This document shows positions 2,020 to 16,331 of a stretch of DNA of 20,018 bases, piece after piece. The notes under the pieces were generated by a model that was not told where the DNA came from, did not search any database, and saw only the letters and a list, made by a program, of their open reading frames with translations. This DNA comes from a virus, in IMG/VR virus record IMGVR_UViG_3300036780_000100, positions 1 through 20,018 of that record. One strand, 5' to 3'. Position 1 is the first letter of the stretch; the number at the start of each line of letters is the position of its first letter. Both the position numbers and the translations under genes were made by a program.

Positions 2020-2029
2020 AGGGAGCGGC

Positions 2030-2077
2030 GTAGCAAAGCCGATCGCCGAATCTTCCAGGCGATCGGCGTCTTGTGAA
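2030..2077 (+). repeat. Family 1 palindromic repeat, copy A
   Basis: A perfect 10-bp inverted repeat, GCCGATCGCC (2038-2047) and GGCGATCGGC (2058-2067), encloses a 10-nt loop starting GAATC. It is flanked by TAGCAAA on the left and GTCTTGTGAAGC on the right. It fills the spacer before the portal gene. No T-run follows, so it does not look like an intrinsic terminator. The same layout recurs at six other gene junctions here. Confidence 0.8.
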
Positions 2078-2087
2078 GCCAAGAAAG

Positions 2088-4445
2088 ATGGATGGCGGCG
2101 ACCTGATCATGGCAGCGAACGGCAAGCCCGGCCTTTTCACGCGCGCGATCGCCGCCGCGCGCGTGCTCGGCGGCGGCAAGGTCGACCAGAGCGACTGGTT
2201 CGGGCCGTCCGAGCCGCTGGCGCCGACCGCACCGCCCGAGGTCGCCGGGCGCCGGTGGGACATCGCGACCGGCTTCAACCTCGTCACCGCGCCGCGCGGC
2301 ATCGACAGCACCGGCTCGCCGCGCATCGGCTTCCGCGAGCTCCGCGCGCTCGCCGACAATTACGACATGCTGCGCCTCATCATCGAGACGCGCAAAGACC
2401 AGCTCGCGAAGCTGACCTGGTCGGTGCGCGCCAAGGACGAGGCGAAGCGCGACCAGGACGATCCGCGCCTCAAGCTGCTCACCGATTTTTTCGTCTATCC
2501 CGATCGCGAGCACAGCTGGGACGCGTGGCTGCGCGCCGCGGTCGAGGACATGCTGGTGATCGACGCGGCGACGATCTATCCGCGCAAGTCGCGCGGCGGC
2601 GGTCTCTATGCGCTCGACATCGTCGACGGCGCGACCATCAAGCCGGTGATCGACGATCATGGGCGCCGGCCGTCGCCGCCGCTGCCCGCCTATCAGCAGG
2701 TGCTGAAGGGATTGCCCGCGGTCGATTACCGCAGCGACGAGCTGTTCTATTTCCCGCGCAACTACCGCGCGCCCTTCGTCTACGGCTGCCCGCCGGTCGA
2801 GCAGGTGGTGATGACGGTCAACATCGCGATGCGCCGTCAGCTGCACCAGCTCGAATTCTATACCGCCGGCACCGTGCCCGACATGCTGATCCCGGTGCCC
2901 GACACCTGGTCGCCGTCGCAGATCGAGGAATTCCAGGCGTATTTCGACGCGCTCTATACCGACAACACCGCCGAGCGCCGGCGCGCGCGCTTCGTTCCCG
3001 GCGCGATGACCAAGGGCGTCGTCCAGACCAAGGAGGCCGCGCTCAAGGACGAATACGACGAGTGGCTCGCGCGGATCTGCTGCTACGCCTTCTCGGTCTC
3101 GCCGCAATGGGCGGTGAAGCAGATGAACCGCTCGACCGCCGAGACGCAGCAGGAGCAGGCGCTGATGGAAGGCCTCGCGCCGCTGCAGGCCTGGGTCAAG
3201 GTGATGATCGACCGCTGCCTCGCCGACGGCTTCGGCGCGGACGATCTCGAATTCGCCTGGGACGAAGAGGATTCGATCGACCCGACGGCGCAGAACGAGC
3301 TGCTGCTCGGCCAACTCAAGGAAGGCGCCATCACCCTCGACGAGTTCCGCGCCGAGTTCGGCCGCGTGCCCTATCCCAAGGGCCTCGGCGCGAAGCCGCT
3401 GATCTACACCGCGACCGGGGCGGTCACCCTCGATTCCGTGATCAATCCGCCCGAGCCGGCGCCCGCGCCCGGCGCGATCGACCCGGTCACAGGAAAGCCC
3501 ACCGGCGCGCAGGTGGCTGGGCAACCCGGCAAACCCCCGCAGCCGGGCGCCGATGGCGAAATTGAACGCTCTCCGGGGCGGACGGGCGGCAAAAACGGGG
3601 ACGCCGAGAGCGCCGGTCGCGGCGGCCGGATGGAAAAGGCGGCCCGGCCGCGGCGCCCAGCCCGACCGCTCAGCGCTTTTTCTCAGGAAACCGAGGATAT
3701 CCTGGCAGCGATTTGGCGCCCGCTTTTGGACTCCGAGGGCAAGCGTCTCGCCGCCGCGGCGCAGCTCGGCCGGAAGATGCCCGCTGCCAAAATGCAAAAG
3801 GCGGCCGATGCGCCCGACCCCGGCGCCGCCGGTGGAGCAGGCGCCGGGCAAAACAATGGCGACGAGAACTTCCAGCTCGACCCGGATGCCTGGGAGGAAG
3901 CTGAGGAATCTTCGCGCAAAGCGATCGAAGGGCAGGCATTAAGGGGCTCGACCGAGCGGATCGCGATGCTCGGGCTCGACGACGCCGCGATCACCGCGCT
4001 CGCCAATCCGAACGCCGTCGCCTGGGCGCAGGCGCACGCGGCCGAGCTCGTCAGCCAGGTCGCCGACACCACGCGCGAGCGCGTCAACGCGCTGGTGACG
4101 CAAGCCGAGGACGAAGGCTGGGCGGTCGAGAAGCTCAGCCAGGCGATCCGCGACGACGACGTCTTCGGCGTCAAGCGCGCGCAGCTGATCGCGCATACCG
4201 AGACCCGCACCGCCGACAACCAGGGCGCGCTCGCCGGCATGAGAGGCGCGCAGGAGTCCGGCGTCGACACCGAGAAGAGCTGGGTCACCCGCGGCGACAA
4301 CGTCTGCCTCGTCTGCCAATCGAACGAAGATGACGGCTGGATCGATGTCGGCGACGACTTCAATTCCGGCGACGACGCCGCGCCGGCTCACCCCAATTGC
4401 GAATGCGATACCGAGTATCGCGTCAAACAGGAGACCAGCCCATGA
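2088..4445 (+). CDS. Portal protein fused to MuF-like minor head domain
   Basis: The ORF encodes 785 residues from the ATG at 2088. Residues about 1-430 are portal-like: an N-terminal region with FRELRALADNYDMLRLIIETRKDQ, a central beta-rich part, and a helical part with RSTAETQQEQALMEGL. After a Gly/Pro/Ala/Arg-rich linker (about 455-545), the C-terminal 150 residues look like the Mu gpF minor head domain, with AHTETRTADNQG, a Cys pair at 740 and 743 (VCLVCQ), and PAHPNCECDTEYR near the end. The portal forms the dodecameric DNA gate; MuF proteins sit at the portal or inside the head. Alternative in-frame starts are GTG 2073 and ATG 2109. ATG 2088 is preferred because its distance to repeat A matches that seen for repeats B and D. 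No good Shine-Dalgarno is visible at any of the three. The gene overlaps the next by ATGA. Confidence 0.88.
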   Translation: MDGGDLIMAANGKPGLFTRAIAAARVLGGGKVDQSDWFGPSEPLAPTAPPEVAGRRWDIATGFNLVTAPRGIDSTGSPRIGFRELRALADNYDMLRLIIETRKDQLAKLTWSVRAKDEAKRDQDDPRLKLLTDFFVYPDREHSWDAWLRAAVEDMLVIDAATIYPRKSRGGGLYALDIVDGATIKPVIDDHGRRPSPPLPAYQQVLKGLPAVDYRSDELFYFPRNYRAPFVYGCPPVEQVVMTVNIAMRRQLHQLEFYTAGTVPDMLIPVPDTWSPSQIEEFQAYFDALYTDNTAERRRARFVPGAMTKGVVQTKEAALKDEYDEWLARICCYAFSVSPQWAVKQMNRSTAETQQEQALMEGLAPLQAWVKVMIDRCLADGFGADDLEFAWDEEDSIDPTAQNELLLGQLKEGAITLDEFRAEFGRVPYPKGLGAKPLIYTATGAVTLDSVINPPEPAPAPGAIDPVTGKPTGAQVAGQPGKPPQPGADGEIERSPGRTGGKNGDAESAGRGGRMEKAARPRRPARPLSAFSQETEDILAAIWRPLLDSEGKRLAAAAQLGRKMPAAKMQKAADAPDPGAAGGAGAGQNNGDENFQLDPDAWEEAEESSRKAIEGQALRGSTERIAMLGLDDAAITALANPNAVAWAQAHAAELVSQVADTTRERVNALVTQAEDEGWAVEKLSQAIRDDDVFGVKRAQLIAHTETRTADNQGALAGMRGAQESGVDTEKSWVTRGDNVCLVCQSNEDDGWIDVGDDFNSGDDAAPAHPNCECDTEYRVKQETSP

Positions 4446-6007
4446 TGTTCGCGCGGATGCTGAAGCTCGATGCGGCGAACCGCCTTGTCTATGCGCGCGT
4501 CGACGAGACACCCGACCGGATCGGCGACGCGATGGATTACGCGTCGACGAAGCCGCAATACGAGAAATGGTCGGCCGAGATGCAGAAGGCCTCGGGCGGC
4601 AAGAGCCTCGGCAACGTGCGCGGCATGCACCAGCTCACCGCCGCCGGCGTCGTCCAGGCGCTCGACTTCGACGATGCGGGCAAGGCGATCGATTTCTGCA
4701 TCAAGGTCGTCGACGACGGCGAATGGAAGAAGTGCGAGGAAGGCGTCTACACCGGCATCTCGCCCGGCGGCCGTTATCTGAAGCGCTGGAACGACGGGAA
4801 ATACATCCGCTACACCGGCGACCCGCAGGAGATCTCGCTGGTCGACCGGCCGATGATCCCGACTGCGACCTTCACCATGATCAAGGCGGACGGCGTGCAG
4901 GAGCAGCGCGCCTTCAAGGCGCCGGATGCGATGACGCTGCTCGCCGACGAGCTCGCGAGCGTCGGCAGCCCGGCCGAGTATCGCGCGGTGCTGCGGCGCC
5001 AGCCGGCGACGATGATCAAGGCGCTGTTTTCCGCCGAGGCGATGCAGACGCTCGCTGCCGCGCAAGGAATGGCGAAGGCCGATTACTCGAGCGACGAGCG
5101 CGACGCGATGGCGAAGAGCGGCGAAGCCATGGATGACGGCTCGTTCCCGATCAAATCCGCGAAGGACGTCGCGGACGCGGTCGACGATTGGGGCCGCGCC
5201 GGGAGCAAGCCCGCGGTCAAGGCGCATATCGCGAAACGCGCCAAGGCGATCGGCGCCACCGACAAGCTGCCCGAGGATTGGGACGGCTCGACCAAGAAGA
5301 AGATGGCGAAGGTCGTGTCGATCGGCGACATGCAGAAGGGCATGGGCGACGTCGCGCAGATGGCCTCGCTGCTCGAGCAGCTGAAATGGCTCGCCTGCTG
5401 CGTGACGCAAGATGCGACCGCGGAGCGCGACGGCTCGGCGCTGCCGGGGCGGCTCGCGCAATGGCTCAATGAGGGCGTCGCGATCTTCACCGATCTCGCG
5501 GCCGAGGAAAGCAACGAGGCGCTCACCGCGCTGCAGGCCTCGGTCGATGCGATCCCGGCGCAGGTGATGGCGAAGGCTGCGGCGGGCGGCGACATGCTCA
5601 AGGTCGGCGCCGCGATCAGCAAGTCCAACATGACGCACGTCCAGGCGATCCACGATCATGCGCGCGATCTCGGCGCCGATTGCGCCGCCGGCGACGGCAG
5701 CATGGCCAAGGTCGCCTTCGATCTCGCGACCGCGCGCGGCGACAACGCCATGCTGAAGCGCGCGATCGAGACGCGCGACCAGCGCATCGCCGATCTCGAG
5801 AAGCTTCCCGCCGGCGGCGGCCCGGTGCTGCGCGGCGGCGCGGTCGAGCGCAGCGAGGACGGCAGCGACCCGGCGGCGATGCTCAAGGCCGCGGACGTGC
5901 CGAAGGAGATCGCCGACATGCCCGAAGGCAGCGAGAAATCGACCCGGCTCTTCCGCTGGAGCATGGAGCATCCGACGCCGCCGCGCGCACCCGCGCGGCT
6001 CGGTTGA
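4442..6007 (+). CDS. XkdF-like prohead protease fused to scaffold-like C-terminal region
   Basis: The protein has 521 residues. The ATG at 4442 overlaps the portal stop and follows AGGAG at 4429-4433. Residues about 1-155 resemble the XkdF putative serine protease domain, with GVYTGISPGGRYLKRW and EISLVDRPMIPTATFTMIKADG. About 225-280 resembles a small helical domain often found in phage proteases of this type (FPIKSAKDVADAVDDWGRAG, AHIAKRAKAIGATDKLPEDW). The remaining ~240 residues are helical and Ala/Asp/Lys-rich, as expected of a scaffold. It sits between portal and capsid, the usual place of protease and scaffold. Inference: the protease matures the prohead and the fused tail serves as scaffold, removed by proteolysis. 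The catalytic Ser cannot be assigned with certainty. Confidence 0.78.
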   Translation: MMFARMLKLDAANRLVYARVDETPDRIGDAMDYASTKPQYEKWSAEMQKASGGKSLGNVRGMHQLTAAGVVQALDFDDAGKAIDFCIKVVDDGEWKKCEEGVYTGISPGGRYLKRWNDGKYIRYTGDPQEISLVDRPMIPTATFTMIKADGVQEQRAFKAPDAMTLLADELASVGSPAEYRAVLRRQPATMIKALFSAEAMQTLAAAQGMAKADYSSDERDAMAKSGEAMDDGSFPIKSAKDVADAVDDWGRAGSKPAVKAHIAKRAKAIGATDKLPEDWDGSTKKKMAKVVSIGDMQKGMGDVAQMASLLEQLKWLACCVTQDATAERDGSALPGRLAQWLNEGVAIFTDLAAEESNEALTALQASVDAIPAQVMAKAAAGGDMLKVGAAISKSNMTHVQAIHDHARDLGADCAAGDGSMAKVAFDLATARGDNAMLKRAIETRDQRIADLEKLPAGGGPVLRGGAVERSEDGSDPAAMLKAADVPKEIADMPEGSEKSTRLFRWSMEHPTPPRAPARLG

Positions 6008-6013
6008 TGAGAT

Positions 6014-6083
6014 CTCGCTCGCAGCCGCCACACCAACCCTGCTCGCTCGACCTAGGTTGGCTAGGCGGTGGTCGAGCGAGCAG
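6014..6083 (+). repeat. Family 2 palindromic repeat, copy a
   Basis: A 17-nt block (6024-6040), beginning GCCGCCACACC, is followed by a 14-bp perfect stem. The arms are 6039-6052 and 6070-6083, with core GCTCGCTCGACC pairing to GGTCGAGCGAGC, around a 17-nt loop. It occupies the spacer before the capsid gene. A near-identical copy in the opposite orientation lies just after the capsid gene (7642-7699). Confidence 0.8.
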
Positions 6084-6109
6084 CAAACCTTAAACAGGAG
6101 AGAGCACGC

Positions 6110-7627
6110 ATGAACCAGAACATCACCGAAGACACGCTGAGACTCATGCGTGGCGTCGCCAGCGCCTCGGACATGGTGAAAGCGTGGCTGTCGCCGACCG
6201 GCAACACCACCGGGCTGCAGAACTACGATCTCGAGAAGCCGGCGCTGTCGATCGTGCCGGTCGAGACGCCGTTCTTCAATCGCATCCCGATCGTCGGCGC
6301 CAATGGCGGCATCCAGGCGAACTGGCACGCGATCACCGGCATCAACACCACCGGGATCAGCGCCGGCCTCGGCTACGGCCAGCGCAACAGCCCGATCAGC
6401 ACGACCACCGCGGATTATTTCGCCAAGTTCTGCGCGTTCGGCCTTGATGATTTCATCCAGGAGGAAGCGGAGTGGTCGGCCGAGGGCTACATGGATTTGC
6501 TCGCGCGCGGGCAATCCAATCTCACCTGGGCGATGAAGATCGCGATGGAGCGCGTCTATGTCGGCGGCCAGGGCACCTATGGCCTCGGTGCCACGCCGCG
6601 GCCGACCGTCGCCGATGTCAGCACCGGCGGCGTGCTCGCCGCCAACACCACCTTCTCGGTGATCTGCGCGGCGCTGACGCTCGACGGCTATCTCAACGGC
6701 TCGGTCGCCGGCGGCGTGCCGGGTCTCGTCTCGCGCACCAACGCCGATAAGTCGACCGTGCAATATGGCGGCGGCACCGCGCAGGTGTCGCAGAACCGCA
6801 CCGTCGCCACCGCCAACGACAGCAACAACACGCATTCGCTGACGGCGAGCATCGCGACCGTGTCCGGCGCCGTCGCCTATGCCTGGTTCTGGGGCGCGGC
6901 AGGCTCGGAATTGCTCGGCGCGATCACCACCACCAACTCGGTGCTGATCACCGCCGCCGCGGCCGGCACCCAGAACGCCGCCACGCTCGGCGGGGTCGAC
7001 AATTCGCAGAACAGCCTGGTCTGCGACGGCTTCATCGCCCAGATCGCCAAGAGCGGCATGAACGGCTACATCGTGTCGCAAGCGACCGGCACCGCCGGCA
7101 CCGGCACGCCGCTGACCGCCGATGGCGAAGGCGGCATCGTCGAGATCGATACCGATCTCAAATATTTCTACGACACCTACCGTGCCTCGCCGACGGCGAT
7201 CTGGGTGAGCTCGCAGGAGCTCTTGAACATCGGCAAGAAGATCAGCGCCGGCCCCGGCTCGGGCACCAGCAACATCCGCTTCACCCGCGATGCGACGACC
7301 GGGCAGCTGATCGGCGGCACGCTGGCGCGCGCCTATCTCAACAAGTTCACGGTCGGCTTGTCGGGCGGCCCGGCCGGCGGCCAGGAGATCCCGATCAATC
7401 TCCATCCCAACCTGCCGCCGGGCACGATGATGTACGAAATGATGAAGGTGCCCTTCCCGCTGTCGGGCATCAACAACGTCGTGCAATTCCGCGCGCGCAA
7501 GAACTTCTACGCGACGCTCTGGCCCAAGACCACGCGGCAGTGGGAATACGGCGTCTACCTCGACGGCGTGCTGCAGAACTACTTCATCCCCGGCTGGGGC
7601 GTCCGCAGCAACATCGGCAACGGCTGA
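6110..7627 (+). CDS. Major capsid protein with inserted Ig-like region
   Basis: The protein has 505 residues. The ATG at 6110 follows AGGAGAG at ideal spacing; an upstream in-frame GTG at 6068 lies inside the repeat stem and is unlikely. Seen: an N-terminal region with ETPFFNRIPIVGANGG and a C-terminal half with FYDTYRASPTAIWVSSQELL, AYLNKFTVG, ending QWEYGVYLDGVLQNYFIPGW, the general pattern of HK97-fold capsids downstream of a protease-scaffold gene. Residues about 175-290 are unlike the rest: Thr/Ala/Asn/Gly-rich with TVATANDSNNTHSLTASIA and VAYAWFWGAAGSELLGAITT, resembling an Ig-like insertion that could sit on the capsid surface. It assembles the head shell around the scaffold. No signal for a separate scaffold gene was found. 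Confidence 0.85.
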   Translation: MNQNITEDTLRLMRGVASASDMVKAWLSPTGNTTGLQNYDLEKPALSIVPVETPFFNRIPIVGANGGIQANWHAITGINTTGISAGLGYGQRNSPISTTTADYFAKFCAFGLDDFIQEEAEWSAEGYMDLLARGQSNLTWAMKIAMERVYVGGQGTYGLGATPRPTVADVSTGGVLAANTTFSVICAALTLDGYLNGSVAGGVPGLVSRTNADKSTVQYGGGTAQVSQNRTVATANDSNNTHSLTASIATVSGAVAYAWFWGAAGSELLGAITTTNSVLITAAAAGTQNAATLGGVDNSQNSLVCDGFIAQIAKSGMNGYIVSQATGTAGTGTPLTADGEGGIVEIDTDLKYFYDTYRASPTAIWVSSQELLNIGKKISAGPGSGTSNIRFTRDATTGQLIGGTLARAYLNKFTVGLSGGPAGGQEIPINLHPNLPPGTMMYEMMKVPFPLSGINNVVQFRARKNFYATLWPKTTRQWEYGVYLDGVLQNYFIPGWGVRSNIGNG

Positions 7628-7641
7628 ATTGTCTGATTCCC

Positions 7642-7699
7642 GCTCGCGCGGCCACTGCCTAGCCAATCTAGGCCGCGCGAGCAGGGTTGGTGTGGCGGC
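7642..7699 (-). repeat. Family 2 palindromic repeat, copy b (opposite orientation)
   Basis: A 12-bp perfect stem, GCTCGCGCGGCC (7642-7653) with GGCCGCGCGAGC (7671-7682), encloses a 17-nt loop. A block at 7683-7699 is the exact reverse complement of 6024-6040 in copy a. On the minus strand the loop matches copy a at 15 of 17 positions. The arm sequences differ from copy a but remain fully complementary. The element lies in the spacer after the capsid gene. Confidence 0.8.
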
Positions 7700-7734
7700 C
7701 GCGCGTGCGGCCTCAATCAAAGGAGAAGTGGAAC

Positions 7735-8007
7735 ATGAAGACGATGGTTTTGCGCGACCCGACCAAGCCGGTCTCGGTCATCCACCACGAGACCAAGACC
7801 TACAAGCCCACCAAGAAGGGCATCTTCGAGGTCGACGACGCGCATGTCGATGCGCTGCGCTCGCATGGGCTGATGCTCGAGGGCGAAAAGGCCGAGCTCG
7901 CCGACGCCAAGAACGTGATCGCCGACAAGGACGCGACGATCAAAGAGCAGGGTGAGCAGATCGCCGACCTCACCGCGCGGCTTGAGAAGCTCGAGAAGAA
8001 AGGCTGA
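7735..8007 (+). CDS. Small protein with C-terminal coiled coil, between capsid and connector genes
   Basis: The protein has 90 residues. The ATG at 7735 has AGGAG upstream (7721-7725); the frame is open further upstream through repeat b, which is not likely coding. The first half (VLRDPTKPVSVIHHETKTY, then GIFEVDDAHVDALRSHGL) may be a small folded module. Residues about 47-90 form a charged heptad-like helix with TARLEKLEKK at the end, a likely coiled coil. Position directly after the capsid suggests a minor head or head-completion function, but no family is recognised, and a soluble assembly factor is equally possible. Confidence 0.7.
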   Translation: MKTMVLRDPTKPVSVIHHETKTYKPTKKGIFEVDDAHVDALRSHGLMLEGEKAELADAKNVIADKDATIKEQGEQIADLTARLEKLEKKG

Positions 8008-8015
8008 ACAGCTCG

Positions 8016-8068
8016 CGCAGCACAGGCGCGGCGCGAATCGTGAGCGCCGCGTCCGTCGTGCGAAGCAA
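8016..8068 (+). repeat. Family 1 palindromic repeat, copy B
   Basis: The left arm GGCGCGGCGC (8025-8034) pairs with GCGCCGCGTC (8044-8053) over 10 bp with one G-T pair, around the 9-nt loop GAATCGTGA. It is followed by GTCGTGCGAAGC. It ends 21 nt before the ATG of the connector gene and fills the spacer. The arms differ from copy D by changes on both sides that preserve pairing. Confidence 0.75.
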
Positions 8069-8074
8069 TAAAGC

Positions 8075-8647
8075 ATGACCGATCTCACCACGCTGACGCT
8101 CGTCGAGCAATTCCTCAGCCCGCCGCTGGGCTCGGGGAATGCCGACGAGCCGGTGCTCGCCGCGCTGATCACCGCGGCGAGCGCCTTCGTGGTGACCTAT
8201 GTCGGCTGGCCGGTACTCTCGGGCTCGTTCACCGAGACCCGCAACGGCACCGGCGGCCGGGTGCTGTCGCTGAAGAACCGGCCGGTGACCGCGGTCAGCA
8301 CGCTGACGATCGACGGCGTGTCGATCCCGCCCTCGTCCGGCTTCGGCACCGCCGGCTATTGGGTGAGCGACGACGGCACGATGCTGCTGCTGCGCGGCCA
8401 TCGCTTCGAGCGCGGCCTCGGCAACGTGACGATCGCCTATACCGCCGGCTACGCGACCGTCCCGGCGGATCTGCAGCAGGCGGTCAACGAGCTCGTCGCG
8501 CTGCGCTTCAAGGAGCGCAAGCATTTCGACCAGGCCGGCGAGACCATCAACGGCGCTCAGGGCACGACCTTCATCGTCAAGGACATGCGCGAGAGCACGC
8601 GCATGGTGCTCGATCGCTATCGGCGCGTCGCGCCGGGCTGGCCGTGA
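8075..8647 (+). CDS. gp6-like head-tail connector protein
   Basis: The protein has 190 residues. The N-terminal half contains helix-rich EPVLAALITAASAFVVTYVGW. The middle is beta-rich with LSLKNRPVTAVSTLTIDGV, GYWVSDDGTMLLLRG and GNVTIAYTAGYATVPADLQQAVNELVALRFKER. The pattern of a small helical domain, an RPV-type strand, an AGY turn and P-DL-QAV helix is typical of phage gp6/gp15-like connector (adaptor) proteins that form the ring under the portal. The start at 8075 lies 21 nt after repeat B and has no clear Shine-Dalgarno; upstream is only the A-rich AATAAAGC. It precedes the gp10-like gene, the standard order. Confidence 0.8.
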   Translation: MTDLTTLTLVEQFLSPPLGSGNADEPVLAALITAASAFVVTYVGWPVLSGSFTETRNGTGGRVLSLKNRPVTAVSTLTIDGVSIPPSSGFGTAGYWVSDDGTMLLLRGHRFERGLGNVTIAYTAGYATVPADLQQAVNELVALRFKERKHFDQAGETINGAQGTTFIVKDMRESTRMVLDRYRRVAPGWP

Positions 8648-8680
8648 TGGAAAAGCGAACTCCCATGCGGCGATGTGTGA

Positions 8681-8728
8681 GCAAAGCCGGCGCGCGAACC
8701 CTCAGCGCGACGGCGTCTTGCGAGCGCG
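8681..8728 (+). repeat. Family 1 palindromic repeat, copy C
   Basis: Arms GCCGGCGCGC (8686-8695) and GCGCGACGGC (8705-8714) pair at 9 of 10 positions around the loop GAACCCTCA. The flanks AGCAAAGCC and CGTCTTGCGA match copies A, E and G closely. An outer 8-bp complementary pair, GCGGCGAT (8667-8674) and ATCGCCGC (8729-8736), encloses the hairpin. The element occupies the spacer before the gp10-like gene. Confidence 0.75.
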
Positions 8729-8756
8729 ATCGCCGCCAACAGGGCAGAGCGAAGCG

Positions 8757-9245
8757 ATGCCCATAACAATCCAGATCACCGGCCAGGAAGCCGTCATCGC
8801 CCGCCTCAAGGCGATGGGCGGCGGCGTGCGCCAGAGCCTGCGCCGCGCCGTCATCGCCTCGGCGATCGACGTGCAGGCACGCTCGCGCCAGAAGCTCGCC
8901 GGCGAGGTGCTGAACGAGCGCACCCATCATCTTCACGATTCGATCCACTTCGAGACGGTGCAGGACGATGCGAGCGGCGTGGTCACGCGCGTCGGCACCG
9001 ACGTCGCCTATGCCGCGTTCTGGGAATACGGCTTCAGCGGCACCGAGAACGTGCGCGAGCATCTGCGCCGCACCTCGGTCGCCTTCGGCCGGCCGATCAC
9101 GCCGGTCGACGTGCTGGTCCGCGCCCATAGCCGTCAGGTCGATCAGGCGCCGCGTTCGTTCCTGCGCAGCGCGCTCGCCGAGCTCGAGCCCGAGATCCGC
9201 GCCCGGATCGAAGCGGCCGTTCACCAGGCGGTGAAGGGGTCTTAG
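8757..9245 (+). CDS. HK97 gp10-like head-tail completion protein
   Basis: The protein has 162 residues from ATG 8757 (MPITIQITGQE). An upstream ATG at 8673 would add 28 residues encoded by repeat C and is rejected as a start. Seen: ITGQEAVIARLKAMGGGVRQ, a basic first helix, the signature-like VGTDVAYAAFWEYGF, and APRSFLRSALAELEPEI near the end. The TDVxYAxFxEYG pattern and the RSFLR segment are typical of the HK97 gp10 / lambda-Z-like tail completion family, which joins the tail to the head connector. It follows the connector gene and precedes the tail terminator-like gene, as expected. The upstream purine patch (GGGCAGAGCGAAG) is a poor ribosome binding site. Confidence 0.85.
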   Translation: MPITIQITGQEAVIARLKAMGGGVRQSLRRAVIASAIDVQARSRQKLAGEVLNERTHHLHDSIHFETVQDDASGVVTRVGTDVAYAAFWEYGFSGTENVREHLRRTSVAFGRPITPVDVLVRAHSRQVDQAPRSFLRSALAELEPEIRARIEAAVHQAVKGS

Positions 9246-9253
9246 ATGCCGCG

Positions 9254-9294
9254 CTCACTCGCAGCCGCCACACCAACCCTACGAGCTCGCGCGG
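9254..9294 (+). repeat. Family 2 repeat, truncated copy c
   Basis: Bases 9254-9280 match 6014-6040 of copy a with a single mismatch, including the whole 17-nt conserved block. After a 4-nt insertion, GCTCGCGCGG (9285-9294) resembles the left arm of copy b. The loop and right arm are missing. It lies immediately before the Shine-Dalgarno of the next gene, in a 59-nt spacer. Confidence 0.65.
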
Positions 9295-9304
9295 GGAAGA
9301 GCGC

Positions 9305-9751: not shown

Positions 9752-9760
9752 GAGGCCATG

Positions 9761-10069: not shown

Positions 10070-10098
10070 TCGCCGAGAGCTGAAAGGAGTCATCATCC

Positions 10099-10845
10099 AT
10101 GCCCAACACCATCACCCTCGCGGGGCCGGGCGTGCTCTACGGCACGCGCACCGACGCCTCCGGCACCACCGCCTGCAATTTCGGCAAGGTGAAGAGCGTC
10201 GACCTCGAGATCGCCTTCAACACCAAGGCGCTCACCGGGCAATTCCAGGTGCCGTTCGATTTCTTGCGCGGCATCGCCAAGATCACCGGCAAGGCCAAAG
10301 TCGCGGAGATCTCGACCCTGGCGCTGATGAATCTGTTCTTCGGCGTCAACTCGGCGACCGGCGAGACCTTGGTGCAGTTCCTCGAGCCCGGCGCGATCCC
10401 CGGCTCGTCGACCTACATCGTGACGGTCGCGCAATCGGCGACCTGGGTCGCGACCAAGGAAGTGCTCTATGCCGCGACCGGCCTGCCCTTCACCAAAGTG
10501 GCCAGCGCGCCGGCCGCGGGCGAGTTCAGCGAAGCCGCCGGCGTCTACACCTTCGCCGCGGCCGATGCCGGCAAGGCGGTGCTGATCTCCTACAGCTATA
10601 CGCTCACCGGCGGCTTCAACTTCACCCTGACCAATCAGTTGCAGGGCGACACGCCGACCTTCTCGGTCGACTTCTTCAATACGAAGAACGGCAAGCCGGT
10701 GACGTTGACGCTGCCGTTCTGCACCAGCGACAAGCTCGGGCGCGGCTTCAAGGAGGACGATTTCGTCAATCCCGAATTCGACTTCCAGGTCGGCGCCAAT
10801 GCCGCGGGGGTGTGGCTGATCGAGAACTATCCGCAGCTGAGCTGA
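10099..10845 (+). CDS. Major tail tube protein
   Basis: The protein has 248 residues; AAAGGAG sits 9 nt before the ATG. The sequence is beta-rich with tube-like segments (GKVKSVDLEIAFNTKALTGQ, FDFLRGIAKITGKAKVAEI). A central insertion at about residues 125-180 contains GVYTFAAADAGKAVLISYSY, a pattern common to phage tail tube proteins. The end (KNGKPVTLTLPFCTSDKLG, FDFQVGANAAG) is also strand-rich. Family role: subunits stack into the hexameric tail tube around the tape measure. Position just before the tail assembly chaperones and tape measure is the classic siphovirus order. No sheath gene is visible, which favours a non-contractile tail. Confidence 0.82.
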   Translation: MPNTITLAGPGVLYGTRTDASGTTACNFGKVKSVDLEIAFNTKALTGQFQVPFDFLRGIAKITGKAKVAEISTLALMNLFFGVNSATGETLVQFLEPGAIPGSSTYIVTVAQSATWVATKEVLYAATGLPFTKVASAPAAGEFSEAAGVYTFAAADAGKAVLISYSYTLTGGFNFTLTNQLQGDTPTFSVDFFNTKNGKPVTLTLPFCTSDKLGRGFKEDDFVNPEFDFQVGANAAGVWLIENYPQLS

Positions 10846-10855
10846 GGAGGCGGCG

Positions 10856-11029
10856 ATGGCTGATGACCGTGTCGCGGTGCGCCTGGCGCTCGCGCAGGCG
10901 ATCGACGCCGAGGATCTCGATCCGAAGCTCGCCAAGGCGATCGTGCTCGGCATCTTCGACCAGGCGATGGAGCTGGTCGATGCGGTCGAGCGCTTGGCCG
11001 TCGCGGTCGAGAAGATCGCGGCGCGCTGA
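10856..11029 (+). CDS. Small 57-aa helical protein of the tail module
   Basis: The ORF starts at ATG 10856 with AGGAGG at 10845-10850, overlapping the tail tube stop, and ends at TGA 11027-11029. The product is Ala/Leu/Val/Asp-rich and predicted mostly helical (VAVRLALAQAIDAEDLDPKL, AIVLGIFDQAMELVDAVERL). It has heptad-like hydrophobic spacing in the second half. It fits snugly between the tube gene and the chaperone gene, which starts 18 nt after it. No family is recognised; a tail assembly accessory role is a guess from context. Confidence 0.65.
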   Translation: MADDRVAVRLALAQAIDAEDLDPKLAKAIVLGIFDQAMELVDAVERLAVAVEKIAAR

Positions 11030-11047
11030 TTCAATCAAGGAGGAACG

Positions 11048-11353
11048 ATGACGGACAAACGGGACGAGACCGGCGAGATCGTGCTCGCCGGCGAGACGGT
11101 GAAGATCGCGGCGCTGACCCTCGATCAGCTGCAGGAGGTGCTGCCGGCGCTCGAGCGCCTGACGAACGCGCCCGATGTCGGCGCGCGCATCAAGGAATGC
11201 CGCGCCGTCATCTGCACGGTGACCGGCAAGCCCGATGCCGAGCTCGGCAAGCTGAAGGTCTCGCTCGAGGAGCTGCTCGCCGGCGTGCAGACGATCTGCA
11301 AGGTGGCGGGGCTCGAAGAGGTGGGAAAAAAGCTGGCGGCAAGGAAGGGCTGA
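11048..11353 (+). CDS. Tail assembly chaperone, short form (gpG-like)
   Basis: The protein has 101 residues; the ATG follows AGGAGG. Seen: ETGEIVLAGETVKIAALTLD at the start and a helical body (LQEVLPALERLTN, ELLAGVQTICKVAGLEEV) ending in a basic tail. It lies between the tail tube and tape measure genes, where siphoviruses encode a chaperone pair. Near the 3' end the sequence G GGA AAA (11323-11329), read as GGA AAA in frame, allows a -1 shift into an ORF running to 11646. Family role: the G and GT forms coat the tape measure during tail assembly. Confidence 0.82.
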   Translation: MTDKRDETGEIVLAGETVKIAALTLDQLQEVLPALERLTNAPDVGARIKECRAVICTVTGKPDAELGKLKVSLEELLAGVQTICKVAGLEEVGKKLAARKG

Positions 11354-11646
11354 GCGCGGAGGCTTTCGATTGGCACGCCTTCTACGCCCAGACCTGCGCG
11401 GATACCGGCTGGACCTGGGACGAGGTCGGCCGGCTCACCTTGCCGCGGCATCGCGCGCTCTATCGCGTGTTCCTGCGCCAGCCGCCGGTGCATTGGCTGA
11501 TGGCGGCCTGGGTCGGCTACAGGCCGCCGGCCGACGATGCGGCGCGGCCCGCTTCGGTCGATGTGCGCGCGCTGCTCGACATCATCCCCGGCGCGGAGGG
11601 CAAGCCCAAAGCGCTGACGCTCGACATGTTGGCGGCGTTGTTGTGA
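11048..11646 (+). CDS. Tail assembly chaperone, frameshifted long form (gpGT-like)
   Basis: A -1 shift at 11323-11329 would join the first 94 codons to 105 codons of the overlapping frame (from 11329), giving about 199 residues. The extension begins KAGGKEGLSAEAFDWHAF and includes DTGWTWDEVGRLTLPRHRAL, VHWLMAAWVGY and LLDIIPGAEGKPK. It ends 20 nt before the tape measure start. The extension frame has no convincing start codon or ribosome binding site of its own, which supports frameshift expression. The arrangement parallels lambda G/GT, where the T part contacts the tail tube protein. The shift is inferred from sequence and efficiency is unknown. Confidence 0.75.
11323..11329 (+). other. -1 ribosomal frameshift slippery heptamer
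   Basis: The bases GGGAAAA fall as G GGA AAA relative to the short chaperone frame, the X XXY YYZ pattern for -1 slippage, followed by AAG. The zero frame ends 24 nt later at TGA 11351-11353. Lambda uses the closely related GGGAAAG at the same gene position. Confidence 0.78.
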
Positions 11647-11665
11647 CGGCCGCAGGCGCGTAGCG

Positions 11666-14026
11666 ATGGCCGACGAAGGCATCCAGGTCCTCATCGGCGG
11701 CGAGAACAGCGGCGCGCTCGAATCGATGGCGCAGGTGCGCTACGCGCTGCAGGGCCTGACGGCGCCGCTCCGCGGCGTGCGCGACAATCTCGGCGAGCTG
11801 GCCGAGGCCTTCATCGCCGCCTTCGCGGTCGAGAAGATCGCGCATTTCGTCGATCAGATCACCGAGATGGGCGCGGCGGTCGAGCACGCGACGCACGAGC
11901 TCGGCATGTCGGCCGAGCAGGTCTCGACGCTCAACGTCGCCTTCGAGGCGATGGGCCTCGGCCAGGAAGGCGCGAGCCGCGGCCTCGAGCGCCTCGCCTA
12001 CAACATGAACCAGGCCGCGATCTCGGCGAGCGGCCCCGCGGCGCATGCCTTCCAGGCGCTCGGCATCAGCATGGACGAGCTGAAGTCGATGTCGCTCGAC
12101 CAGGTGATGGCGCGCCTCGCCGACGTGTTCTCGCGCACCGCGGACGGCCCGAACAAGACCGCGATCGCGATCGCCCTCCTCGGGCGCAGCGGCGCTGCGA
12201 TGATCCCGATCCTCGATCAGGGACAGGCCGGGCTCGAGCGCTTTCGCCAGATCGCGCAGGAGACCGGCACCATCATCACCGGCCCGATGGCCGAGGGGAT
12301 GGAGCAGACCGCGATCGCGACCGCGACCTTGGGCGACGCGACCGAGGGTGTCGGGATCACGCTCTACGAGGCGTTCAAGCCGGCGATCGACGCGGTCGTT
12401 AGCGGCCTCACCAGCCTGATCGAAGGCTTCAACAACAGCCTGAAGGCCGGCGGCAATCTCAACACCACGCTCGAGACCATCGTGATCGCCGTCGACCTGG
12501 TCGTCGCCGTCGTCGAGACCTTCGTCAACGGCCTGCGCCAGCTTTGGGATGTCGGCGAGACCGTGCTGCGCGATCTCGGTCAGGCCTGGTCGACGCTCGG
12601 CACGGTGATGAAGGACGTCGTCACCTTCGACTTCGCCGACGTCAAGTCGGATTTCGCCGCCGGCTGGGCCAACATGGCGCAAGTCACGCTGACGGGGCTC
12701 CAGCACATCAAGGACATCGGCCAGAAAGAGATCGACGACATCAAGCAGCTGTTCTCGAATATCGGCCTCGGCGTCGATACCAGCGGCGGCGCCGGCGGCG
12801 CGCGCAGCGGCGGCAGCAAGCCGCAGTTGCCCTCGCTCGGCGGCAACGAGCAGAAGGATCAGCAGCAATCGCTGATCCAGCAGTGGCGCGAGCAGCTGCA
12901 GCAGCGCCAGATCGACGAGCAGAATTTCTTCAAGTCGTCGCAGGCCGAGGAGCTCGCCTATTGGCAGGGCAAGCTCGCGACCGTCAAGGAATACGAGGAG
13001 CAATACGGCCTCACCGAGAAGCAGGCGGCGGCGCTGCATCTCCAGGTGCAGACGCAGATCTACAACCTCGACAAGGAGCAGGCGTCGGAATGGCTCGCCG
13101 CCTATCGCGCCGGCCTCACCGAGCAGCAGGATGCGCTGAAGGAGGAGCTCGCCAACAAGGAGATCGGCGAGGGCGCGTATTACCAGCGCTCGCTTCAGCT
13201 CGCCACCAATTGGCAGCAGCTGATGGCGCAGATCTACGGCAAGGACAGCGCCGAGTATCAGAAAGCGCTGCAGCAAAAGGACCAGCTCGACCGCCAGCAC
13301 GCGGCGCAGGAGCAGCAGGTCTGGCAGAAAGCCGCGACCACGATCTCCAACGCCTTCGACACCATGCTGCGCGGCGTGCTGCAGGGGACGCAGACCTGGC
13401 AGCAGGCGATCGAGCGCCTGGTCGGCAACCTCGTGCTGACGATGATCGAGAATTTCGCCAAGTCGACCATCCAATGGGCGGCGCAGAAGGCCGAGCAGCT
13501 GCTGCTCGAGCAGGCGACCGACACCGCGATCGTCGCCTCGCACACCGCGGCGAATGCCGCCAACACGGCCTCCGATGCCGCGGTGAACATTGGCCCCTCG
13601 GTGCTGAAGCATGCCGGCTCGGCCGCCGCCGCGGTCTACGACGACGTGTCGCAGATTCCCTATGTCGGCTGGGTCCTCGCGCCCCCGGCCGCCGCCGCGG
13701 CCTTCGCCGCGGTCGCCGCCTTCGCGTCCTTCGACGTCGGCGCCTGGAACCTGCCGAGCGACATGATCGCGCAGGTGCATCAAGGCGAGATGATCCTCCC
13801 GGCCGATGTCGCCGGCCAGGTGCGCGGCGGCGGCAGCATCGCCTCTTTCGCATCGGGCGCCGGGAGCGCCGGCGGCGGCGGTGGCGTGCAAGTCGTCCAG
13901 AATCTCACCATCAGCACCATGGACGGCGCCTCGGTGACGGCGCATGCGCAGCGCTTCGCCCCGGTCTATGCGCGGGCCGTCGTTCAGCAGCTGGAGCGCA
14001 GTCCCTCGGCGCGGGGGAAGTTTTGA
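11666..14026 (+). CDS. Tape measure protein
   Basis: The protein has 786 residues. The start (MADEGIQVLIGGENSGALES) follows a poor Shine-Dalgarno and probably depends on coupling to the chaperone frame ending 20 nt upstream. Seen: helical regions throughout, hydrophobic segments at about 272-290 and 668-688, and a Gln/Glu-rich coiled-coil region at about 390-560 (LIQQWREQLQQRQIDEQNFF). The C-terminal signature (GAWNLPSDMIAQVHQGEMIL, then PADVAGQVR and a Gly/Ser stretch) is characteristic of alphaproteobacterial phage tape measures. It sets tail length and is ejected with the DNA. At the usual ~1.5 angstrom per residue it predicts a tail near 115-120 nm. Confidence 0.9.
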   Translation: MADEGIQVLIGGENSGALESMAQVRYALQGLTAPLRGVRDNLGELAEAFIAAFAVEKIAHFVDQITEMGAAVEHATHELGMSAEQVSTLNVAFEAMGLGQEGASRGLERLAYNMNQAAISASGPAAHAFQALGISMDELKSMSLDQVMARLADVFSRTADGPNKTAIAIALLGRSGAAMIPILDQGQAGLERFRQIAQETGTIITGPMAEGMEQTAIATATLGDATEGVGITLYEAFKPAIDAVVSGLTSLIEGFNNSLKAGGNLNTTLETIVIAVDLVVAVVETFVNGLRQLWDVGETVLRDLGQAWSTLGTVMKDVVTFDFADVKSDFAAGWANMAQVTLTGLQHIKDIGQKEIDDIKQLFSNIGLGVDTSGGAGGARSGGSKPQLPSLGGNEQKDQQQSLIQQWREQLQQRQIDEQNFFKSSQAEELAYWQGKLATVKEYEEQYGLTEKQAAALHLQVQTQIYNLDKEQASEWLAAYRAGLTEQQDALKEELANKEIGEGAYYQRSLQLATNWQQLMAQIYGKDSAEYQKALQQKDQLDRQHAAQEQQVWQKAATTISNAFDTMLRGVLQGTQTWQQAIERLVGNLVLTMIENFAKSTIQWAAQKAEQLLLEQATDTAIVASHTAANAANTASDAAVNIGPSVLKHAGSAAAAVYDDVSQIPYVGWVLAPPAAAAAFAAVAAFASFDVGAWNLPSDMIAQVHQGEMILPADVAGQVRGGGSIASFASGAGSAGGGGGVQVVQNLTISTMDGASVTAHAQRFAPVYARAVVQQLERSPSARGKF

Positions 14027-14031
14027 TGACT

Positions 14032-14085
14032 AGCGAAGCAACGGCGCCGCGCGAATCGTTAGCGCGGCGCCTGCATGCGAAGCGT
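14032..14085 (+). repeat. Family 1 palindromic repeat, copy D
   Basis: A perfect 10-bp stem, GGCGCCGCGC (14043-14052) and GCGCGGCGCC (14062-14071), encloses loop GAATCGTTA. The left flank is AGCGAAGC and the right flank CTGCATGCGAAGC. It ends 22 nt before the next ATG. Its loop and right flank match copy B, while the arms have exchanged bases on both sides and stay complementary. Confidence 0.8.
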
Positions 14086-14093
14086 TAAAAGCG

Positions 14094-14687
14094 ATGACCA
14101 TTCCGGTCTTTCCCGCGCTGCCCGGTCTCGCTTTCCCGGTCGACCGCAAGCCGGCGAGCGCGACGGTGCTGCAGAAGACGAGCTCGGGCAAGAAGAGCGC
14201 GCTGCAACTCTATACCTTTCCCGAATATCAATACACGCTCGACATCGAGGTGCTGCGCCAGTTCGCGAGCTTCACCGAGTGGGCGACCTTCGTCGGCTTC
14301 GTCAACAGCCTGCAGGGCCAGGGCAACGTCTTCTATTTCGACGATCCCGACGACGACAGCGTCGCCGATCAGGCGACCGGCACCGGCGACGGCACGACCA
14401 CGGCGTTCCAGCTTGTGCGCACGATCGGTGGCTTCGCCGAGCCGATCCAGAGCATCAACGGCACGCCCACGATCATGCTCGACGGCACGCCGACCGCCGC
14501 GTTCACGCTCGGCAATACCGGCATCGTCACCTTCGCCAGCGCGCCCGGCGCGGGAGTCGCGATCACCTGGACCGGCAATTACTACTGGCTGTGCCGGCTC
14601 GACGCCGACGATGCGGTGAAGTTCTCGAAGTTCGCCAGCGGTCGCTGGTCGGTCAAGCAGATCAGCTTCACGACGGAGAAGCAGTAG
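14094..14687 (+). CDS. DUF2460-like distal tail protein
   Basis: The protein has 197 residues. Seen: FPALPGLAFPVDRKP at the N-terminus, KKSALQLYTFPEYQYTLDIE, a helix with WATFVGFVNSLQGQGNVFYF, then GTGDGTTTAFQLVRTIGG, IMLDGTPTAAFTLG, VTFASAPGAGVAITWTGNYY and FSKFASGRWSVKQISF. This series matches the DUF2460 family, which includes gene transfer agent distal tail proteins. It heads the tail-tip block and precedes DUF2163, NlpC/P60 and the large tip protein, the same order as in gene transfer agents. The ATG at 14094 has no Shine-Dalgarno; upstream is repeat D followed by GTTAAAAGCG. Role: a hub at the tube end that organises the baseplate. Confidence 0.85.
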   Translation: MTIPVFPALPGLAFPVDRKPASATVLQKTSSGKKSALQLYTFPEYQYTLDIEVLRQFASFTEWATFVGFVNSLQGQGNVFYFDDPDDDSVADQATGTGDGTTTAFQLVRTIGGFAEPIQSINGTPTIMLDGTPTAAFTLGNTGIVTFASAPGAGVAITWTGNYYWLCRLDADDAVKFSKFASGRWSVKQISFTTEKQ

Positions 14688-14702
14688 ATGCTGCGCCGCG
14701 CG

Positions 14703-14757
14703 CCGTCGCAAGACGCCGCCTCGCTGAATTCGCTCGCCGGCTTTGCTGGCGCGCGTC
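14703..14757 (-). repeat. Family 1 palindromic repeat, copy E (reversed)
   Basis: Read on the minus strand it carries AGCAAAGCC, a shortened loop GAATTCA and CGTCTTGCGA, matching copies A and C in order. Its arms, GCCGCCTCGC (14715-14724) and GCTCGCCGGC (14732-14741), pair at about 7 of 10 positions, the weakest stem of the set. It fills the spacer between the DUF2460 and DUF2163 genes. Confidence 0.7.
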
Positions 14758-14767
14758 GGGGGCACCG

Positions 14768-15700
14768 ATGCCGCTGAGAGCTGCCTCGCCGTCGCTGATC
14801 GCGTTGCTCGCCAGCATCGGCCCGACCGAGAATCCTTACATCGCCGAGCTCTACACCTTCACCCTCACCGGCGGCCTGGTGCTGCGCTACACGACCGCCG
14901 ATCGCGACGTCAATGTCGGCGGCACGATCTGGGAAGCGGGCACGGTGCGCTGGCAAGACCCGAACAACCGCGCGCTCGGTCATTGGAAGATCGGCCTCGA
15001 TCCCGATCAATGGCAGGTGCTGGCGGTGCCGCGCGACAAGGACCCGCATACGGGGACGCTGTGGCCGGATATGGTCGGCAGCCAGCCTTTCCTCGCCGCG
15101 GCTTTCGGGGGCGCCTTCAGCGGCGCCGACATCGAGGTCGATTACGCCTTCTTCGCTGCGCCGCCGGCCGCGGGTGCGACGAGTTGGGCGCCGGTCGGCA
15201 CCATCCAATGGTTCCGCGGCGAGGTCGGGCCGATCGATGTCGGCCGCTCGGCCGCCGTCTTCACCTTCAACGACTATCGCGTGCTGCTGACGACGCAGAT
15301 GCCCCGCCATCTCTTCGGTGCGACGTGCCGCTTCGCGCTCTACAGCCCGCCTTGCGGCGTCGTCGAAGCGAGCTTCGGCGTCGGCGGCGCGGTGGCCGAC
15401 GGCTCGCGTCCTGGGGTCATCGTCGCCAGTGCCGGGGTCTTCCCATCAATTAGCGGTCTCACCTTCGATCTCGGTCAATGTGTGATGACGAGCGGCGCGA
15501 ATGACGGATTCTCGCGCATGATCCGGCTCTGGGACGGCGGCAGCGGCTTTTATCTATCCGCGCCGTTCTATTGGCCGGTCAACGCCGGCGACAGCTTCAC
15601 GGTCTATCCCGGCTGCGACCTGACGCAGGCGACCTGCGCGCTCTTCGCCGGCAATTTCGGCGGCCAGCCCTTCATCCCGGCGCCGGAAACGGCAACATGA
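14768..15700 (+). CDS. DUF2163 / BR0599-family tail-tip protein
   Basis: The protein has 310 residues from ATG 14768, which follows a GGGGG run. The frame is open much further upstream through the DUF2460 gene and repeat E, which is not likely coding. Seen: NPYIAELYTFTLTGGLVLRY, VGGTIWEAGTVRW, a middle part with YAFFAAPP and WFRGEVGPIDVGRSAAVFTF, and a Cys-rich end (ATCRFALYSPPCGV, PGCDLTQATCALFAGNFGGQ, PFIPAPETA). The NFGGxPFIP ending near a Cys pair is typical of the family that follows DUF2460 in phages and gene transfer agents. It is a hub protein that binds the distal tail ring; four or more Cys may bind metal. A new repeat (F) follows the stop. Confidence 0.85.
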   Translation: MPLRAASPSLIALLASIGPTENPYIAELYTFTLTGGLVLRYTTADRDVNVGGTIWEAGTVRWQDPNNRALGHWKIGLDPDQWQVLAVPRDKDPHTGTLWPDMVGSQPFLAAAFGGAFSGADIEVDYAFFAAPPAAGATSWAPVGTIQWFRGEVGPIDVGRSAAVFTFNDYRVLLTTQMPRHLFGATCRFALYSPPCGVVEASFGVGGAVADGSRPGVIVASAGVFPSISGLTFDLGQCVMTSGANDGFSRMIRLWDGGSGFYLSAPFYWPVNAGDSFTVYPGCDLTQATCALFAGNFGGQPFIPAPETAT

Positions 15701-15714
15701 TTTTGTGCGGCCAT

Positions 15715-15768
15715 ACGCCGTCGCACGACGGCCGCTTCGCTCCAGATCCGCTCGCGGCCTATGCTGGC
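15715..15768 (-). repeat. Family 1 palindromic repeat, copy F (reversed)
   Basis: On the minus strand it shows GCCAGCATAGGCC, loop GGATCTGGA and CGTCGTGCGACGGC, a diverged version of the consensus. Arms GGCCGCTTCGC (15730-15740) and GCTCGCGGCC (15750-15759) form a 6-bp outer stem with a mismatched inner part. It lies between the DUF2163 gene and the peptidase gene. Confidence 0.65.
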
Positions 15769-15794
15769 GCATGGCCGAGCGGGAGTCCGCGGCG

Positions 15795-16331
15795 ATGACC
15801 GAGCTCGAGCAACAACAGCGCGCGGCGGTGGTCGCCGAGGCCGAGAGCTGGCTGCGCACGCCCTATGTCCACGCGCAGCGCGTGAAGGGCGCCGGCGTCG
15901 ACTGCGCGATGCTGCCGGCCGAGGTCTATCACGGCGCCGGCCTGCTGCCCTTCGTCGCCGTGCCGTATTACCCGCGCGACTGGCATCACAATGTCGCGGC
16001 CGAGCGCTATCTCGCGATCGTCCTCAGCTACACGACGGAGATCCCGCGCGCGGCGCTCACGCCGGGCGACCTGATCCTCTTCCGCATCGGCAAGTGCTGG
16101 GCGCATGGCGGCATCGTCATGCCGCCCGGCTGGCCGCGCATCATCCATTCCGACGCCAATGCCGGCTGCGTCGCTTATGGCCGCGCCGATGGCGGGAGGC
16201 TCGCCGATCCAAGATGCAAGCCGAGATATTTCACCTTATGGCCTTCTTCGGTGCCGGCGCGGCCGTCGCAAGACGCCGGCGTCGCTGAAGACTCGCGCGC
16301 CGGCTTTGCTGGCCGCGCCGGGGAGGACTGA
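15795..16331 (+). CDS. NlpC/P60-family tail-tip peptidase
   Basis: The protein has 178 residues from ATG 15795 (MTELEQQQRAAVVAEAESWL) with GGGAG about 10 nt upstream. An earlier in-frame ATG at 15705 is followed by codons from repeat F and is unlikely. Catalytic residues are visible: Cys37 in GVDCAML, His104 in WAHGGIV and a third polar residue His118 in IIHSD; RTPYVHAQRVKGAGVDCA is the family-type lead-in. Family role: a cell-wall hydrolase in the tail tip that opens peptidoglycan during DNA entry. The last ~24 residues (after RYFTLWPSSVP) are encoded by repeat G and look like an accidental tail, so the ancestral protein probably ended near residue 154. Confidence 0.87.
   Translation: MTELEQQQRAAVVAEAESWLRTPYVHAQRVKGAGVDCAMLPAEVYHGAGLLPFVAVPYYPRDWHHNVAAERYLAIVLSYTTEIPRAALTPGDLILFRIGKCWAHGGIVMPPGWPRIIHSDANAGCVAYGRADGGRLADPRCKPRYFTLWPSSVPARPSQDAGVAEDSRAGFAGRAGED
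16262..16316 (-). repeat. Family 1 palindromic repeat, copy G (reversed, inside a coding region)
   Basis: On the minus strand it reads CAGCAAAGCCGG, loop GAGTCTTCA, and CGTCTTGCGACGGC. Arms GCCGGCGTCGC (16275-16285) and GCGCGCCGGC (16295-16304) pair over 10 bp with one bulged T. The entire element is in frame with the peptidase gene and supplies its C-terminal residues (ARPSQDAGVAEDSRAGFAG). It ends 18 nt before the next start. Confidence 0.78.

Follow-up and report, generated by a model that had tools for sequence, protein, structure and literature searches.

Why should the structural gene cluster of an uncultured virus carry the same palindrome seven times, at the boundaries of its genes? 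The question is raised by a stretch of viral DNA of 20,018 nucleotides (positions 1 to 20,018 of the IMG/VR record IMGVR_UViG_3300036780_000100; the window hereafter), in which the initial annotation had pointed out seven palindromic repeats of about 50 bp. All seven are present, at coordinates that were off by a few bases. These repeats, called family 1 here, are probably copies of a mobile palindromic element acting at the DNA level and resembling the repetitive extragenic palindromes (REPs) and Rickettsia palindromic elements (RPE) of bacteria. Two covariance models were used: R1 was trained on the seven window copies and R2, against circularity, on 20 bacterial-chromosome copies only. The window copies are the following.

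2028..2079, + strand: copy 1 (c2030), subtype A, GTAG end intact; R1 61.7 and R2 49.1 bits; RNA fold z -3.3; between the open reading frame (ORF) 1195-2019 and the portal gene (start 2088), in the order stop, 8 nt, copy 1, 8 nt, start.

8015..8066, + strand: copy 2 (c8016), subtype A; R1 58.7 and R2 44.9 bits; 7 nt past a stop, before the head-tail adaptor gene (start 8075).

8677..8725, + strand: copy 3 (c8681), between A and B in type; R1 53.4 and R2 34.5 bits; 29 nt past a stop, before the HK97-gp10/neck gene (start 8757).

14033..14083, + strand: copy 4 (c14032), subtype C; R1 55.5 and R2 24.2 bits; between the tape measure and DUF2460 genes, 6 nt past the stop, with GATGAC flanks on both sides.

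14702..14750, - strand: copy 5 (c14703), subtype B, reversed; R1 54.6 and R2 29.7 bits; between the DUF2460 and DUF2163 genes (start of the latter 14768), 14 nt past the stop.

15717..15768, - strand: copy 6 (c15715), subtype B, reversed; R1 53 and R2 15.8 bits (E 0.13), the weakest copy under R2; between the DUF2163 and NlpC/P60 peptidase genes (start of the latter 15795).

16262..16313, - strand: copy 7 (c16262), subtype B, reversed; R1 67.2 and R2 35.0 bits; within the peptidase gene and in frame with it, near the C-terminal end (residues 156-173 of 178), followed by the tail-tip gene (start 16335).

The element is an imperfect hairpin of ~50 nt; its ends are constant, and its inner stem, which is closed by an apical loop, covaries. 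In the core, AGCA[A/C]AG stands 5' and GTC[T/G]TGCGA 3' of the inner stem and its loop. The bracketed bases change together (A-T, C-G), and so do positions of the inner stem; an asymmetric A/GTC internal loop is conserved. The apical loop of the phage copies is GAATCTTCA-like. Three subtypes differ in their ends: GCGnAGCA[A/C]AG / GTC[T/G]TGCGAAGC in A (outer helix GCGnAGCA/TGCGAAGC), GCCAGCA.. / ..TGCGACGGC in B, where the outer helix is longer (GCC../..GGC), and GCGAAGCAAC..TGCAYGCGRAGC in C (outer helix GCGAAGCAAC/TGCAYGCGAAGC). The covariation score reaches 0.412 in 13 phage copies (0.120 after shuffling) and 0.312 in 20 chromosomal copies (0.074 after shuffling).

The flanks are more alike than chance allows. 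The flank pair AGCAAAG..GTCTTGCGA, counted with one mismatch allowed per flank and a spacing of 20-34 nt, occurs six times in the window; over 100 dinucleotide shuffles the mean was 0.07, and no shuffle had more than 1. With R1, the seven copies score 53-67 bits and the next match in the window 11.7 bits. R2 recovers the copies independently, six of them as its top six window matches (24-49 bits, E 8e-11 to 6e-4) and c15715 weakly.

Each copy had been described as lying just before the start of a structural gene, and the names given to these genes (portal, head-tail adaptor, HK97-gp10/neck, DUF2460, DUF2163, NlpC/P60 and tip) are confirmed. Structural genes do follow the window copies, but c16262 is located inside the peptidase reading frame, past the end of the peptidase homology. 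Moreover, copies also lie close behind the upstream stops: the distance from stop to element is 6-16 nt in five of the seven and 29 nt in a sixth. Four copies are in the + and three in the - orientation, and all three reversed copies belong to subtype B. A phage-specific start signal was rejected, as copies occur in bacterial chromosomes and their position is not conserved across phages.

A collinear close relative, L018 (terL 80%, portal 69% amino acid identity), contains no family-1 copy according to the R1 and R2 searches. At the g7/gp10 junction, the two genes of L018 overlap (GTGATG), whereas the window has a 109-nt spacer (8648..8756) holding copy 3, in which a relic ATG follows the stop at the place of the stop/start overlap (TGATG) of L018. 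The g6/g7 spacer of L018, which also lacks a copy, is much shorter than the 67 nt of the window. Both junctions are element-free in L018, and the element is an insertion relative to this phage; L018 ends inside the tape-measure gene, and the four downstream junctions lie outside the comparison. A search for close relatives by means of the tail tip and DUF2163 found none. The GATG(AC/C) sequences flanking some copies were considered as target-site duplications and set aside, since insertion at an overlapping stop/start leaves both genes whole only if the overlap is duplicated; an ATG touches the stop in 67 of 296 host genes.

A more distant phage, G054 (IMGVR_UViG_3300036780_000410), shows the same gene order at 35-55% amino acid identity (portal 55%) and carries at least seven copies; a third phage, L194, has a single copy, before its portal gene. 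At junctions occupied both in the window and in one of these phages, the subtype differs in four of four cases and the orientation in three of four (DUF2460, C+ vs. B+; peptidase, B- vs. A+; tip, B- vs. C+; portal, A+ vs. B-). Copy 4 shares its subtype, C, with G054:19249. The sharing of junctions between phages does not exceed chance (3/5, p 0.27; 4/6, p 0.12). Junctions have been occupied independently: independent insertion would produce such differences of subtype and orientation, which an inherited control site would not be expected to show. Copies also lie within genes and within each other. In the G054 peptidase gene, one in-frame copy is N-terminal (AQASAESSKREPSCEA) and another internal, and the portal gene of the prophage in genome G013 contains a minimal copy. 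The loop of a family-1 copy in G054 encloses a palindrome of another family (family 2, below), and a copy in G014:C23 holds a second, small copy. A short mobile palindromic element was one of the options put forward by the initial annotation, and the empty L018 junctions, the subtype swaps, the in-frame and nested copies and the copies outside phages all favor it.

The last of these were found by extending the search to chromosomes. A pattern scan of genome contigs for exact AGCAAAGCC..GCGTCTTGCGA gave 13 matches, and the only true hairpin among them, L014, is an intergenic pair in the alphaproteobacterial metagenome-assembled genome (MAG) REEB95 (G001); the viral matches L002 and L003 were not accepted as members. 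The element is present in all four genomes of the genus of G001, an uncultured alphaproteobacterial genus, and by R1 in none of the other 35 genomes of its family. The order-wide search returned these four genomes and one marginal match elsewhere, and a class-wide sample of 385 genomes G001 alone at E<=1e-4. As 15-149 candidates per genome were scored in the family, order and class searches, the absences are soft. The covariance-model search proposed earlier yields copies beyond the window cluster. Because it is confined to one genus among the sampled genomes, the element may serve to tag the hosts of uncultured phages.

About 4-9 copies were found per genome of the genus, mostly intergenic and near stop codons; a 371-kb whole chromosome contig has one strong copy. 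Stop-codon adjacency applies to 17 of 21 chromosomal copies under approximate gene calls, and a codon-model gene call places most of them <=10 nt from a stop or inside the 3' end of a gene. Their ends are constant and their stems wholly different. Five sets are shared by 2-4 species at orthologous loci, where the flanks have 80-88% identity, mostly 81-86% (the L089/L090 alignment is partial), and on this ground these copies are old. The GTAG end is found in 14 of the 21; among phage copies, it is kept by c2030, one of seven in the window, by the G054 copy at 3775 and by the nested G054 copy. Both ends of chromosomal copies are often GCGnAGC / GCGAAGC; sequences of this type form very stable DNA mini-hairpins. 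The density amounts to 0.35 copies per kb in the phage (7 in 20 kb) vs. 0.0022 per kb in the chromosomes (~2 per Mb), a difference of ~160-fold.

Family 1 is not the only palindrome at these gene boundaries. Family 2, with a constant loop of ~22 nt (GCAGCCGCCACACCAACCCTGC) and freely varying complementary stems, uses the same kind of site and is represented in the window by three palindromes.

6008..6086, - strand: g4/g5 junction; constant loop GCAGCCGCCACACCAACCCTGC and a second hairpin; the L018 junction lacks this palindrome.

7637..7715, + strand: g5/g6 junction; L018 has the clean spacer GGCTAAGGAGACTCAAATG.

9241..9289, - strand: gp10/g9 junction; common to L018 and the window.

Between L018 and the window, one family-2 site is common and three differ. 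This family was also encountered in nine viral stretches (L163-L171), twice directly upstream of an apparent capsid gene, and single copies of its loop core are present in the chromosomes of G001, G031 and G033. A third family, unrelated to family 1 and of the CCCTCACCC..GGGTGAGGG type (CCCTC palindrome), was seen in L110, the prophage of G013 (G013:C26). It lies at the junctions between the tape measure and DUF2460, DUF2460 and DUF2163, and peptidase and tip genes, and also in frame inside the peptidase gene. The motif CCCTCNCCC of this prophage reaches 1.1 per kb, against 0.04 per kb in the chromosome contig (~26-fold).

Could the repeats instead be a control site of the late genes? A phage protein would then bind the hairpin in front of structural genes, through the constant GAATCTTCA loop and the constant internal loop, and the binding would set expression or mark the DNA for processing, chromosomal copies being stray or domesticated. 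Such a site would account for a loop conserved over three phages of 35-55% amino acid identity while the stems differ, for the structural gene that follows every window copy, for the ~160-fold density and for the old, conserved chromosomal copies. It sits poorly with the occurrence of both orientations, the chance level at which occupied junctions overlap, the absence of copies from those junctions that could be compared with L018, the closest relative, the copies within peptidase and portal genes, and the other palindrome families at the same junctions in the G013 prophage. This explanation is considered unlikely, although it fares best among the alternatives.

A still lower probability is given to hairpins selected for their RNA structure alone, as intercistronic elements for mRNA 3'-end protection, RNase III processing or termination. 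The compensatory changes and the placement past stop codons, in chromosome and phage alike, would suit them, as would the stable RNA folds predicted for most copies. Taken singly, only some window copies fold better than shuffles (z -4.1 to -1.6 for six), and the RNA of c14703 is no more stable than its shuffles (z +1.1). The three reversed copies hold the consensus on the non-transcribed strand, and the occurrence of both orientations had rightly been taken as an argument against a strictly RNA-level role. No T-runs are found 3' of the window hairpins, as observed before, and intrinsic terminators were rejected. The homologous junctions of L018 lack the element, and no Rfam 15 covariance model gives a match near its gathering score, or any at the repeats. 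A late-gene operator or RNA leader, the two other options first proposed, could fit single copies and does not account for the facts that point to mobility.

Short open frames bridge four of the hairpins (8648-8756, 14027-14094, 14688-14768 and 15697-15798), each opening at an ATG that touches the upstream stop, crossing the hairpin and reaching the next start or its vicinity. They may be relics of overlapping starts or preserve translational coupling; these bridging frames at c8681, c14032, c14703 and c15715 were not retained as meaningful, as GC-rich DNA could yield them by chance.

The least probable alternative, a prophage or domesticated prophage passively collecting ordinary intergenic palindromes of its host without any phage preference, would agree with the G013 prophage being rich in its own palindrome and with the bacterial gene in G054, but the density of phage copies is far above that of all known host-lineage chromosomes and their loop type is distinct and common to phages from different metagenomes. 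Passive capture by itself does not explain the density or the GAATC-like loops of the phage copies. The reason would lie either in a true host that is rich in copies and outside the sample, or in phage DNA being favored as a target or niche. The bacterial gene in question, NMT1/THI5-like, lies within the structural cluster of G054 (L191, 11106-12104), which suggests a prophage remnant or cargo. The window itself has a 274-aa ORF between the terminase and portal genes (1195-2019), where L018 has none. It has no match in Pfam or PHROGs and is possibly a cargo gene.

The reading as a mobile element implies a way of moving. Orientation independence and the conserved folded shape suggest that the element is recognized as DNA. 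The simplest form would be a single-stranded hairpin, by analogy with REPs and the REP-associated tyrosine transposases (RAYTs). We infer that folded single-stranded DNA would be recognized by its shape and constant bases, and spread by a trans-acting nuclease or transposase of the HUH/Y1 (RAYT-like) kind. Copies would persist where harm is small, either a few bases past a stop codon, in both orientations, or in frame; in a compact operon, sites past a stop also lie just before the next start. Once transcribed, a copy would form a stable RNA hairpin, mostly <= ~15 nt from a stop codon, and copies between cotranscribed genes might alter the balance of structural proteins. In Escherichia coli, REPs <=15 nt from the stop are reported to make ribosomes stall and to reduce the translation of the upstream gene (PMC12306157, citing earlier work). 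With five of the seven window copies 6-16 nt past a stop, a side effect of this type on the balance of structural genes is plausible, and side effects as RNA hairpins between late genes are probable.

Several points weigh against a mobile element. No Y1/RAYT gene flanked by family 1 was found in the four genomes of the genus, MAGs that are possibly incomplete. The sole Y1 tyrosine transposase gene of the genus (L113:10444-10770, in G013:C3) is flanked by unrelated GGGGTCAGAGTAGATTT inverted repeats and was rejected as RAYT carrier; it resembles the kind flanked by terminal inverted repeats that is described alongside RAYTs. A Y1 domain was not seen in the phage proteins scanned either. Mobility is read from sequence comparison, and the empty-site comparison is with one close relative, which ends before the four downstream junctions. 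Chromosomal copies with old positions, changed stems and kept ends could reflect selection for function. Furthermore, the GAATC loop occurs in seven of 11 phage copies and in none of 21 chromosomal copies. This may hint at a role specific to phages. Only one of the seven window copies has kept the GTAG end.

A bolder version of the same reading is tentative: a phage-adapted lineage of structure-recognized palindromes, marked by a separate loop code (GAATCTTCA) and by ends of three subtypes, might circulate among alphaproteobacterial phages and their hosts, moved by a putative single-strand-specific enzyme, and rewire late structural gene expression through hairpins inserted at stop/start overlaps. 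REPs are repeats of bacterial chromosomes, and term searches in PMC3733652, PMC2817692, PMC3116915 and PMC12306157 found no description of them in phages. A phage operon ~160 times denser in copies than related chromosomes, with empty sites and nested and in-frame copies, offers a natural test of palindrome movement, and the family also one of palindrome effects on gene expression. Palindromes hopping between junctions may tune the expression of neighboring genes.

Among known systems, integron attC sites resemble family 1 in their conserved ends and variable palindromic middle and in probable recognition as a folded single strand; they depend on a core (GTTRRRY/RYYYAAC) and an integrase. The likeness is an analogy: family 1 appears to have no attC core (GTTRRRY) and no integrase, and the gene order is collinear with element-free relatives. 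The start-associated sequences (SAS) of cluster K mycobacteriophages, to which the repeats had been likened, are 13-bp asymmetric GGGATAGGAGCCC motifs at gene starts in the non-structural half of the genome, and the sites of extended SAS (ESAS) keep to the same gene families from one phage to another (PMC3203893). Both systems place short repeats, with inverted repeats, close to the starts of phage genes, but this likeness is superficial: family 1 accompanies structural genes, has no fixed start motif, does not conserve its positions and has host copies. The motif GGGATAGGAGCCC is absent from the start-proximal sequences examined in the window.

CGTC-tagged REPs and RPE are closer. They are alphaproteobacterial, have no dedicated transposase known, and insert in frame into genes, which is also seen here; most family-1 copies have CGTC in their 3' arm. 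The CGTC REPs carry CGTC (TGTC, CCTC) at one terminus, with an 8-9 bp stem, a 4-5 nt loop and a CCA tail (PMC3733652), whereas in family 1 CGTC is internal and stem, loop and CCA tail are unmatched; the likeness to RPE is by description only. With the GTAG-tagged REPs (Nunvar 2010, PMC2817692; Di Nocera 2013, PMC3733652), family 1 shares the small palindromes, which mostly end in GTAG on one side in the chromosomal copies, the adjacent palindrome of variable base composition, as the covarying stems show, the complementary changes in these stems and the placement downstream of genes, between unidirectional or convergent genes and sometimes at gene ends or interiors, in either orientation. Location downstream of genes, complementary stem changes and in-gene copies are features of REPs, and CGTC REPs have no transposase (PMC3733652). 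Family 1 differs in its greater length, in outer arms that pair, in the conserved A/GTC internal loop, in its few copies per genome, in the lack of a flanked RAYT gene among those found, in the GTAG mostly lost in phage and in its dense occurrence in phage structural operons. Although the GTAG- and CGTC-tagged REPs are the closest published frame, membership is not claimed, given that no cognate RAYT was found, that the copy number is low and that GTAG is mostly lost in phage.

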